Part shown: positions 60,223 through 64,000 of the stretch, one piece after another
Layout: each line of letters starts with the position of its first letter
How positions within the stretch are numbered: the first letter of the stretch is position 1
DNA from: Gammaproteobacteria bacterium BRH_c0
GTDB lineage: Bacteria; Pseudomonadota; Gammaproteobacteria; Pseudomonadales; Porticoccaceae
Length of the DNA stretch: 64,000 nucleotides
Direction of reading: 5' to 3'
Assembly: GCA_000961645.1 (NCBI GenBank)
Contig: LADM01000069.1
Coordinates: forward strand, 17,578-81,577
The notes under the pieces: model-generated
Told to the model about the DNA's origin: nothing
Databases searched by the model: none
Seen by the model: the letters and a program-made list of their open reading frames with translations, nothing else
Made by a program: the position numbers and the translations under genes

Positions 60223-61860
60223 ATGGACGCAGACAGACAGTTTTACAAGCAGGATGCGCTGTCCTCCCAAGCGCTGTGGTTTTACCTCCTGTACCGCCTC
60301 GCACTCGGTCTGCTGTTGCTGGGTATTTTTCTCTCCAAACTCGCGCCCGACATTTTCGGCTCTGTTCATGACAAGCTGTATTTTTACACCGCTGCCATTT
60401 ATCTGCTGATAACCACCATCGACCTGGCGATCAGCAACAGTGAGCGCTATCGGCTTGGCACCACTCATCTGCTATTTATCCTGCTGACGGATATCACCGT
60501 CCAGACCTTGCTGATGCACGCCAGTGGTGGCCTGCCAAGTGGTATTGGTTACCTGATGCTGGTGACAGTTGCGGTCGGGTCGATATTTTTTACCGGCCAG
60601 CTGGCTATCCTGGTGGCCGCCGTGGCCAGCATCGGCATTATCGTCGAGAGCGCCAGCACACTGTTCCTCTCCCCGGAATTGCGCAGCACCATGTTCCCGG
60701 CGGGATTGTTGGGCATTTTGCTGTTCCTGACGTCCCTGATTGTGCAAGGCCTCAATCGTGCCCTGCGCAAGGCGGAGCGGGTGGCTACGCTTGAGTCAGC
60801 ACAGTCGGCCCAGCTACAGGAGCTCAATGAACTCATCATCAGCCGCATGCTCACCGGCATTCTGGTGGTGGACGCGGCGGGCAATATCGAGCTGATCAAC
60901 CAGGCCGCCGTGCAGTTGCTCGGAGGCAACCGCCCTGAAGCGCCGTTCAAGCGCGGCGACAATATTCGCGCTGAACCCAGCCTCGCCACCCAGCTGCGCA
61001 ACTGGAGCAAATTCAGCTGGCTGCGTGCCAACCCCTTTATTCCGCGCTTTGGCAACACCGAGGTACAGGCCAGTTTCAAACACACTGACCAGAGCGATAA
61101 AAAGCGCATCATGATTTTCCTTGAGGATTCCCGGGCCGCCACCCAGCACGCCCAGCAACTCAAGCTGGCCTCTCTGGGGCGCCTCACCGGCAGTATCGCC
61201 CACGAAATCCGCAACCCCCTCGGCGCCATCAGTCACGCTTCCCAGCTGCTGGCAGAATTCCGCGACCACGACGACGCCACTACCCGCCTCACCGACATCA
61301 TTGCCAAGCAGGTACGCAGGGTTAACCTGATTGTGGAAAACGTGCTGCAGCTATCACGGCGCCAGGAACACAATTTTCAGAAAATAGATTTGCCAACATG
61401 GTTGCAAGGTTTTGTCGATGAGTACCTGGAAACATCGCGCCAGCGCCCTGAAATTGGCCTCGATATATCGGCCAACATTATCACTACCACGTTCGATCCC
61501 TCCCACCTCCAGCAGGTGCTGACCAACCTGCTGGATAATGCCGTCCGCTACAGCCGCCTCACCTCTGGCACCCCCTGGGCGGGGTTGCGGGTTCGGCTGG
61601 GCGGGGTCGACAAACTGCCCACCATCGATGTCCTGGATCTGGGTCCCGGTGTCGCTGAGCAGGATCGCAATAAGCTGTTTGAGCCATTTTTTACCACCTC
61701 CAGCGAAGGCTCCGGCCTCGGTCTGTACATCGCCAGGGAGCTGTGTGAAATCAACTATGCAACCCTCAAATACGAACCGCCGGAAGGCACTGAAGGCGGA
61801 TTTTTCCGCATCAGTTTTGCCCACCCCGGAAAAATACTGGAGCGCAGCGATCATGACTAA
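60223..61860 (+). CDS. pilS: Sensor histidine kinase PilS
   Basis: 545 residues: six N-terminal membrane segments (about 20-185), a PAS-like domain (about 205-300, LNELIISRMLTGILVVDAAG), and a kinase core. The H-box is GSIAHEIRNPLGAISHASQL with phosphorylated H327. ATP-binding motifs include LTNLLDNAVRYSR, DLGPGV and GSGLGLYIARELC. It senses pilin levels and phosphorylates PilR to drive pilA transcription. It overlaps pilR by eight bases. Confidence 0.95.
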   Translation: MDADRQFYKQDALSSQALWFYLLYRLALGLLLLGIFLSKLAPDIFGSVHDKLYFYTAAIYLLITTIDLAISNSERYRLGTTHLLFILLTDITVQTLLMHASGGLPSGIGYLMLVTVAVGSIFFTGQLAILVAAVASIGIIVESASTLFLSPELRSTMFPAGLLGILLFLTSLIVQGLNRALRKAERVATLESAQSAQLQELNELIISRMLTGILVVDAAGNIELINQAAVQLLGGNRPEAPFKRGDNIRAEPSLATQLRNWSKFSWLRANPFIPRFGNTEVQASFKHTDQSDKKRIMIFLEDSRAATQHAQQLKLASLGRLTGSIAHEIRNPLGAISHASQLLAEFRDHDDATTRLTDIIAKQVRRVNLIVENVLQLSRRQEHNFQKIDLPTWLQGFVDEYLETSRQRPEIGLDISANIITTTFDPSHLQQVLTNLLDNAVRYSRLTSGTPWAGLRVRLGGVDKLPTIDVLDLGPGVAEQDRNKLFEPFFTTSSEGSGLGLYIARELCEINYATLKYEPPEGTEGGFFRISFAHPGKILERSDHD

Positions 61861-63217
61861 ACACCAGGCACTGATCGTCGACGACGAAGCGGATATTCGC
61901 GAACTGCTCCATATCACCCTGGACCAGCTCGGCCTCAAAGTATGGGAAGCTGAGAGCGTACAGCAGGCCATCACCCTGCTCGACAGTCACCAATTTGACC
62001 TGTGCCTGACCGATATGCGCATGCCCGGTGGCGACGGCATGACCCTCGTGGACCACATACAGCGCCACTGCCCACAGATGCCAGTGGCGGTGATCACCGC
62101 CCATGGCAACAGCGACCTGGCCGTGGAAGCCCTGAAAAAAGGCGCCTTTGATTTTGTCTCCAAACCGGTGCAACTGACGCGTCTGCGAACCATGGTGCAA
62201 ACCGCCCTGCAATTGCGCCACGACAGTCGCATCCCCCACACCGATGAAAGCGGCCTCAACGGCAACTCCCCGGTCATGATCAATCTGCGGCAGCAAATAG
62301 CCCGCGTTGCGCGCAGCCAGGCACCCATCTTTATCAGCGGCGAATCCGGCACAGGCAAGGAACTGGTGGCACGCGCCATCCACTATCTGGGGCCGCGCGC
62401 CAACGGGCCGTTTATTCCTGTCAACTGCGGTGCCATCCCGGCAGAATTAATGGAGAGTGAATTCTTCGGCCACAAAAGAGGCAGCTTTACCGGCGCCATA
62501 CAGGACAAGCAGGGGCTGTTCCAGGCCGCAGACGGCGGCACCCTGTTCCTCGACGAAGTGGCCGACCTGCCCATCGCCATGCAGGTCAAACTGCTGCGCG
62601 CCATCCAGGAAAAGTCAGTGCGCTCCATCGGCAGCCAGGATGAAAAAAATATTGACGTGCGCATTCTCAGCGCCACCCACAAACCGCTTCACAATGAGGT
62701 GCTGAGCGGCACTTTCCGCGAAGATCTTTTTTATCGCATCAATGTCATCGAGATCAAAGTACCGCCTCTGCGCGCTCGCCGCGAAGACATTCCCGAACTG
62801 GCCCAGCTGTTTATCGCCAAGTTCGCCAAGGAAAGCGCCACGACAGCCCCCAAACTCAGCGATGACGCACTCAAGGCCCTGATCGAATACCCCTTCCCCG
62901 GCAATGTCCGGGAGCTGGAAAACACCCTGGAGCGAGCCTTCACCCTCTGCACCGATGGCATCATTACAGTCCACGACCTGAGCCTGCGCGCACTCACAGC
63001 AAAAGCCACTCCACAAGCACCGGGAATCAGTTCAGGCAGCGGCGACTACATCCCGGACGCAGGTCTATCCATCGACGATTATCTGGCCGATATCGAGCGC
63101 GAAATCCTGGTGCGAGTACTGGAAGAAAACCGCTGGAACAAAACCGCCAGCGCCGCAAAACTGGGAATCAGTTTTCGCCAGTTGCGCTACAAGTTGCAGA
63201 AATTGGGGATTGATTAA
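61853..63217 (+). CDS. pilR: Sigma-54-dependent response regulator PilR
   Basis: 454 residues from the ATG at 61853, which overlaps the end of pilS. Receiver domain with phospho-acceptor D54 (LTDMRMPGGDG), and an AAA+ domain with GESGTGKELVARAIH (Walker A), the sigma-54 contact loop GSFTGA (a variant of GAFTGA) and GGTLFLDEVADLP (Walker B). It ends in a Fis-type helix-turn-helix (NKTASAAKLGISFRQLRYKL). It activates type IV pilin genes with RpoN. Confidence 0.95.
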   Translation: MTKHQALIVDDEADIRELLHITLDQLGLKVWEAESVQQAITLLDSHQFDLCLTDMRMPGGDGMTLVDHIQRHCPQMPVAVITAHGNSDLAVEALKKGAFDFVSKPVQLTRLRTMVQTALQLRHDSRIPHTDESGLNGNSPVMINLRQQIARVARSQAPIFISGESGTGKELVARAIHYLGPRANGPFIPVNCGAIPAELMESEFFGHKRGSFTGAIQDKQGLFQAADGGTLFLDEVADLPIAMQVKLLRAIQEKSVRSIGSQDEKNIDVRILSATHKPLHNEVLSGTFREDLFYRINVIEIKVPPLRARREDIPELAQLFIAKFAKESATTAPKLSDDALKALIEYPFPGNVRELENTLERAFTLCTDGIITVHDLSLRALTAKATPQAPGISSGSGDYIPDAGLSIDDYLADIEREILVRVLEENRWNKTASAAKLGISFRQLRYKLQKLGID

Positions 63218-63285
63218 CTAAGGGCTAGGCATAAAGGTTTGCCTCAAATATCAAATCTCTTCGACATGCTGTGGTAGCACATAAA
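63218..63285. other. Short trailer between pilR and the CRISPR array
   Basis: 68 bp with no gene. It follows the pilR stop and precedes the degenerate terminal repeat. Confidence 0.5.
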
Positions 63286-64000
63286 TACTTAATCCATGCC
63301 CCCGTGCGGGGCGCGACCGCCGCCGCCATGTTCCAGCACATACAGGGTGACGTTTCAATCCACGCGCCCCGTGCGGGGCGCGACCTCTAACTGTCCATTT
63401 ATGAGGCTCGTCTTTACCGTTTCAATCCACGCGCCCCGTGCGGGGCGCGACGTGCTGGTGTTGGCGTAATTGAGTATGGCCTGGCGTTTCAATCCACGCG
63501 CCCCGTGCGGGGCGCGACCACCTCCAAAGTCGCGCTGATCACCCGCGAATATGTTTCAATCCACGCGCCCCGTGCGGGGCGCGACGTGCAGGTGGGGTTC
63601 GCCTCGCTTGGTTTGCTCGTTTCAATCCACGCGCCCCGTGCGGGGCGCGACATGGTGTAGGGGTCGCCGCGCAGGTGGTGCCAGCGTTTCAATCCACGCG
63701 CCCCGTGCGGGGCGCGACGGCACCACCTGCGCGGCGACCCCTACACCATCGAGTTTCAATCCACGCGCCCCGTGCGGGGCGCGACGCAGTTTACCGATCG
63801 CGCCCGCGAACTATCCAAAGTTTCAATCCACGCGCCCCGTGCGGGGCGCGACAAAAGGTTTCGATGGGCTCGCAGTCTTTGGGGCCGTTTCAATCCACGC
63901 GCCCCGTGCGGGGCGCGACTTACACATGGGAGCAGCAATGTGACCTAGGGCAAGTTTCAATCCACGCGCCCCGTGCGGGGCGCGACGCAGGTTAAGCCAA
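63286..64000 (-). CRISPR. Type I-C-like CRISPR array, distal (trailer) end, cut by window end
   Basis: Ten identical 33-bp repeats start at 63352, 63419, 63486, 63553, 63619, 63686, 63753, 63820, 63887 and 63954. A degenerate repeat (63286-63317, 5' half decayed, one base short) precedes them. There are ten full spacers of 33-34 nt, and an eleventh is cut at 64000. Read on the minus strand the repeat begins GTCGCGCCCCGC and ends GTGGATTGAAAC, the I-C (Dvulg) consensus. That end and the degenerate left repeat imply leftward transcription, with leader and cas genes to the right of the window. Confidence 0.97.

Follow-up and report, generated by a model that had tools for sequence, protein, structure and literature searches.

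The stretch of DNA that was analysed (here, the window) is 64,000 nucleotides long and corresponds to bases 17578-81577 of contig C7, from a genome of 3.5 Mb in 140 contigs. The contig stops at base 81577, within a CRISPR array. The features of the array end in the window, in window coordinates, are as follows.

63285..64000, minus strand: type I-C array, trailer (old) end, with ten exact repeats, all in the same direction
63285-63317: degenerate terminal repeat with 12 mismatches, at the trailer end of the array
63652..63685, minus strand: spacer A, 34 nt, crRNA orientation GCTGGCACCACCTGCGCGGCGACCCCTACACCAT (GCTGG...ACCAT), sixth from the trailer end
63686..63718, minus strand: single CRISPR repeat separating spacers A and B
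63719..63752, minus strand: spacer B, 34 nt, crRNA orientation TCGATGGTGTAGGGGTCGCCGCGCAGGTGGTGCC (TCGATGG...GTGCC), seventh from the trailer end
63652..63749, no strand: 31-nt perfect inverted repeat (arms 63652-63682 and 63719-63749) flanking the CRISPR repeat

The repeat, GTTTCAATCCACGCGCCCCGTGCGGGGCGCGAC, is 33 nt long and occurs at 63619, 63686 and 63753. In crRNA orientation it ends in GTGGATTGAAAC, so that the array ages from right (young) to left (old), and the degenerate last repeat is as expected for the trailer end. The window has ten complete spacers, of which that at 63318-63351 is the oldest, and an eleventh that is truncated where the contig stops. A second contig, C83 (survey locus L031), carries 17 further exact repeats, then the leader and then, on the minus strand, cas2, cas1, cas4, cas7, cas8c, cas5c and cas3. 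The break between the contigs falls within a spacer (window 63987-64000, L031 1-24) and both ends contain CCAA; joining them at CCAA gives a spacer of 34 nt, and C7 and C83 are therefore likely to be one continuous array. Together they hold 27 exact repeats, with spacers of 33-35 nt. As the array is read leftwards with the leader on the right, A is the older spacer and B was gained next after it.

The assignment to subtype I-C made in the initial annotation was supported by profile search, which recovered a complete operon (cas3-5c-8c-7-4-1-2) with cas4, cas1 and cas2 adjoining the leader. The products of cas8c (csd1), cas7 (csd2) and cas5c scored above the cut-offs of NCBIfam TIGR01863, TIGR02589 and TIGR01876, and those of cas3, cas4, cas1 and cas2 above the cut-offs of TIGR01587 and TIGR01596, TIGR00372, TIGR03640 and TIGR01573. 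The repeat length, the repeat end in crRNA orientation (ATTGAAAC) and the spacer length are also those of type I-C arrays (repeats of about 32-33 nt, spacers of about 33-35 nt). Among the matches listed, the closest named relatives of Cas1 were from Porticoccaceae/Porticoccus and Zhongshania (86-87%), which makes the source probably a member of that gammaproteobacterial group; for its own Cas1 cluster, 14 contigs were listed. The three-repeat unit had no match in E. coli genomes. Upstream of cas3 (L031 9231-11990) there are an ORF with what we take to be a SWIM-like zinc-finger region and a transcription factor, presumably WYL-like; either may regulate the I-C locus or simply adjoin it.

Spacers A and B are reverse complements of each other over 31 nt, as first annotated and at the same repeat and spacer coordinates. 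An inverted-repeat search found the two arms to be 100% complementary, with 36 nt between them; it reported no longer inverted repeat in 61500-64000. Each spacer has 3 private nt, on opposite sides of the 31-nt block, and the two merge into one site of 37 bp, GCTGGCACCACCTGCGCGGCGACCCCTACACCATCGA. Read as its reverse complement, this site begins with the 34 bases of spacer B, which bears out the earlier description of a single 37-bp site read from both strands. Apart from this pair, the longest stretch common to any two of the 27 spacers compared was 9 nt (one of the 27 was one base short and another is real only if the contigs join), and the 31-mer occurred at only two places in the genome, A and B, with up to 3 mismatches allowed. 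By arithmetic, the probability of a chance match of 31 nt is negligible; identity at 31 of 31 positions and the adjacency of the spacers suggest that both came from one element. Both spacers are of normal length (34 and 34 nt) and offset, rather than exact inverted copies, as expected of independent antiparallel protospacers.

An inverted repeat or fold-back read could in principle have produced such a pair during assembly, and the assembly is indeed fragmented, with a contig that ends within the array. However, a fold-back would have inverted the repeats as well, whereas all ten exact repeats run in the same direction, nor would it have created three private bases on each side. We regard an assembly artefact as very improbable.

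The nature of the target was investigated from the merged site. When the six frames of the 37-mer were compared, one, reading WHHLRGDPYTI, had no stop and ended every codon in G or C (11 of 11 third positions); another had G or C at 12 of 12 third positions, yet contains a stop. The site thus probably lies within a gene of a GC-rich element. The peptide given in the initial annotation, RWHHLRGDPYTIE, is in the stop-free frame, but its R and E depend on bases of the assumed PAMs. The search with the merged sequence against phages and plasmids that had been proposed with it yielded no target: blastn with the 37-mer at E values up to 10 and tblastn with the doubled peptide gave weak matches only. 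The best phage match of the 37-mer covered 32 nt at 87.5%, close to the end of a 4.8-kb record, with CCC rather than TTC in the PAM position of A. IMG/VR yielded no target for the exact 31-mer, for two 20-mers or for two peptide patterns translated back into DNA (searches run without a positive control). Nor was one found in the genome-contig collection by one peptide pattern, in 111 other genomes of the same family, or among 390 genomes sampled from the order, its own included. A DNA methyltransferase of a Saphexavirus phage (WNHLKGDPFTI, 8/11, E = 5) was considered as the target and dropped as a weak lead. Among the 120 listed of its 743 homologues, the match recurred in one near-identical protein and exceeded 5/13 in no other; 200 scrambled peptides reached at best 7/13 (twice), against 8/13 for the real peptide.

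The newest spacer of the array (L031 1065-1099) encodes RHSFATHLLESG, which is integrase-like and which we take to be a tyrosine-recombinase motif. It had no match in IMG/VR but matched 85 plasmid records, several annotated as tyrosine-type integrases, the best being a Skermanella integrase (94.3% over 35 nt). The PAM position in the six plasmid homologues inspected, which are relatives of the likely target and not the target itself, held CTG (four), CTT or CTC, and in none of them TTC.

According to the account in PMC8482600, the canonical I-C PAM is TTC, with TTN, TTT, CTT, CTN and CCN also in use, and the Legionella I-C system is described as having acquired 20 of 22 spacers in the laboratory from sites with a GAA (= TTC) PAM (PMC5071653). 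With this PAM, the common target site of A and B is predicted to read TTC-GCTGGCACCACCTGCGCGGCGACCCCTACACCATCGA-GAA.

For comparison, type I-C loci were assembled from three sources. A Cas1 profile applied to the genome collection gave 127 confirmed I-C loci, of which the best 80 were kept; a phylum sample of 398 genomes contributed 20 stretches; and class-level samples, together with the remainder of the phylum sample, contributed 43 more. Four arrays (66 spacers) were dropped for spacers in common with another array; one of these, L093 (31 spacers), was a second piece at the same locus. The final survey comprised 107 arrays at 101 loci (C7 and C83 counted as two) and 3,634 spacers, of which 22 had been detected twice, leaving 3,612 distinct. 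Nine of the ten spacers of the window were included, the oldest being left out. Five arrays of unclear orientation were kept as found, and ten arrays had 37-nt repeats.

Same-strand overlaps shifted by at least 3 nt allow the PAM side to be read, as the outer spacer reveals the trinucleotide before the inner one. Over seven sites, a count that leaves out L097 and L105, this trinucleotide was TTC at three, TTT at three and GTT at one (L066); TTC and TTT together make up 3.4% of the trinucleotides within spacers. At L097 (Avibacterium gallinarum), spacers 6, 15 and 17 overlap spacer 13, and these three outer spacers differ only at the trinucleotide that would be the PAM of spacer 13 (CTT, TCC and CCC), as if phage variants differed there. 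The weaker overlap at L105 (24/29) has TTA before the inner spacer. The TTC-type PAM on the expected side that had been assumed for this locus thus agrees with six of seven sites, but not with GTT at L066, the three variants at L097 or TTA at L105. On balance the overlaps support the orientation used here and a putative TTY-like PAM.

We consider that A and B were probably captured one after the other, in normal orientation, from opposite strands of one foreign 37-bp site with a predicted PAM at both ends. The Cas4-Cas1-Cas2 complex would anchor at one PAM and measure 34 nt inward, the PAM would be removed and the fragment would be inserted at the leader. One capture from each PAM, first A and then B, would give spacers of 34 nt each, displaced against one another by the remaining 3 of the 37 nt. 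This capture model draws on the anatomy of the spacers and on published Cas4 biochemistry, in which Cas4 is described as holding the PAM end and setting the orientation (PMC10504553), a role also proposed for type I-C (PMC6519985). As in the processing described in those reports (PMC6519985 for I-C, PMC10504553 for I-G), cas4, cas1 and cas2 here lie by the leader and the spacers are of near-fixed length and would be PAM-anchored. The I-G integration substrates described carry a PAM at one end at most (PMC10504553), and the available text of the two reports describes no prespacer with facing PAMs at both ends. The pair is best explained by ordinary I-C adaptation at a facing-PAM site; two independent PAM-anchored protospacers need nothing special. 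That the site recurred or was primed, as originally suggested, is plausible; the adjacent positions fit one encounter and two equally well.

Antiparallel overlaps were found in 12 pairs at seven of the 101 loci (L052, L067, L097, L105, L119, L132 and the window). L097 supplies four of the 12, three of them at one site, and with these three counted once there are ten PAM-to-PAM combinations, with inter-PAM lengths of 36, 37 (the window), 37, 38, 39, 49, 49, 50, 50 and 55; none of the ten was below 34 or between 40 and 48. The arrays with 37-nt repeats held no antiparallel pair. Repeats in crRNA orientation end in GAAAC in all seven loci, and the lengths therefore do not arise from mis-set repeat ends. 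The targets of three other pairs were sought for a reading of their PAMs and none was found. The eleven other pairs, from six other loci, lie 2 to 62 places apart, none of them adjacent, and several are diverged (e.g. spacers 2 and 64 of L132, 29/30, and spacers 78 and 107 of L119, 27/32), as would be expected of separate acquisitions. A and B are the only adjacent antiparallel pair; adjacent same-strand overlaps occur at L056, L107 and L111. Adjacent positions were thus seen in 4 of 22 overlapping pairs, against 1.1 expected from random order (P ~0.02, treating pairs as independent, which those of L097 are not).

An origin from a single PAM was also weighed. Here the same site would have been sampled on two occasions, and one of the two fragments would have slipped by 3 nt as a prespacer and been integrated the wrong way round; the resulting spacer would probably be non-functional. 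Flipping combined with slipping is documented in type I-F, where slips of at least 2 nt are reported to raise flipping, and the flipped and slipped spacers described there explain an inverted orientation with a displaced end (PMC5059440). In our survey, five of the 12 antiparallel pairs, that of the window included, overlap almost fully and are displaced outward (d = 36-39), which consistent mis-trimming could also yield. A flip without a slip would leave an offset close to 0, and slips of 2-5 nt, if common, should also show in the same orientation. This was examined among near-full same-strand overlaps, comparing spacers within each detected array only. Offsets were 0 (30 diverged, 51 identical), 1 nt (4 diverged, 3 identical) and 6 nt (2 diverged), so that the PAM-side end was common to 30 of 36 diverged overlaps and shifted by 1 or 6 nt in the other six. 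The identical counts were not used, as they include duplications and differently trimmed array pieces (L066, L103 and L109, with apparent offsets of 1 and 2); the two identical pairs at offset 2 are both from L103, one of the loci with arrays in such pieces. Within the surveyed arrays, then, no near-full same-strand overlap was shifted by 2-5 nt, unlike the slips reported for I-F (PMC5059440), and this argues against a flipped and slipped prespacer, which would require slips to occur solely when the prespacer is flipped. The view first taken of the offsets, that they point to two protospacers rather than to one flipped prespacer, is favoured for the same reason. Type I-F systems are not known to have Cas4. 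The present locus has cas4, and Cas4 is reported to keep hold of the PAM end (PMC10504553). On these grounds we judge the single-PAM origin unlikely.

Another reading retains both PAMs: A mistargeted an escape variant and so primed the acquisition of B from an overlapping site on the opposite strand. The geometry is the same as in the preferred account, and the odds of the two overlap. B directly follows A, as priming would have it, and priming is described as strong in Legionella I-C, where overlapping spacers were taken as a sign of natural priming (PMC5071653). However, A agrees with B at every one of the 31 common nt, which leaves no visible escape mutation there; the only places where one could lie are the PAM of A and the 3 nt that A does not have in common with B. 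In the laboratory priming reported for I-C there was, moreover, no enrichment near the priming site (PMC5071653). We treat primed re-acquisition as possible, though less likely than not.

A close parallel is that of Legionella pneumophila Toronto-2005, also of type I-C and with a GAA/TTC PAM, in which two spacers of the same array likewise cover overlapping stretches of one invader, there the element LME-1, and in which spacers from laboratory priming came from both strands (PMC5071653). The older spacer of each Legionella pair is reported to mismatch the known element in the PAM or seed (PMC5071653), whereas here A equals B over 31 nt. A word search of the open-access literature found no description of adjacent antiparallel I-C spacers or of the spacing pattern. 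The pair is uncommon but mostly explained: it fits known biology, and overlapping I-C spacers are already reported in Legionella (PMC5071653).

Under captures from both PAMs, the spacings themselves may be considered. All ten are at least 34 (P ~0.002 against a uniform distribution from 14 to 56) and they cluster within 34-56 (P ~0.02), while a largest-gap test gave P = 0.04 within 34-56 and 0.64 over 14-56; all of these tests are post hoc and on small numbers. GAA (1.46%) is about as common as TTC (1.18%) inside spacers, and scarcity of sites is therefore no obvious reason for the gap below 34. Primed spacers of type I-E are described as avoiding an internal PAM but not its complement (PMC6282206), so that an aversion to the complement offers no ready-made explanation for the gap. 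A two-PAM mode of I-C adaptation is a speculative and doubtful proposition: in it, both strands would be sampled where PAMs face each other at a preferred distance (36-39 and 49-50 nt), and antiparallel pairs with a spacing below 34, in which each spacer would include the PAM of the other, would be excluded. The spacing pattern across arrays is nevertheless the only part of these observations that could become new biology, on the basis of ten cases. A single pair is a curiosity, but if a larger set bore out the spacing that recurs across unrelated I-C arrays, this would inform prespacer capture, and paired opposite-strand spacers are natural records of Cas4-dependent choice and orientation of fragments.

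The pair may also affect the transcript. Folding of the repeat-B-repeat-A-repeat transcript is predicted to give a single long hairpin of -134 kcal/mol (z -10.9; the mean of 200 shuffles was -81.8). One neighbouring unit, folded as a control, gave -84.7 kcal/mol (z -3.2). So stable a hairpin might suggest that the inverted repeat was selected as an RNA or DNA structure, a pre-crRNA hairpin or cruciform, rather than as two immune memories. The 31-nt arm has no other copy in the genome, the two arms resemble ordinary spacers in length and placement, and the site has a coding-like frame; selection for structure is hardly credible beside capture from two PAMs. The pair nevertheless raises the question of whether complementary crRNAs of one array interfere with each other: crRNAs A and B, complementary over 31 nt, could anneal, at a possible cost. 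Self-targeting, on the other hand, should be prevented by the 3-nt offset. At the PAM position, the array copy facing the opposite crRNA has CGC instead of TTC. Opposite the first three spacer bases it has GAC, which mismatches crRNA B at three of three and crRNA A at two of three, and neither crRNA would thus find a proper target in the array copy of the other.
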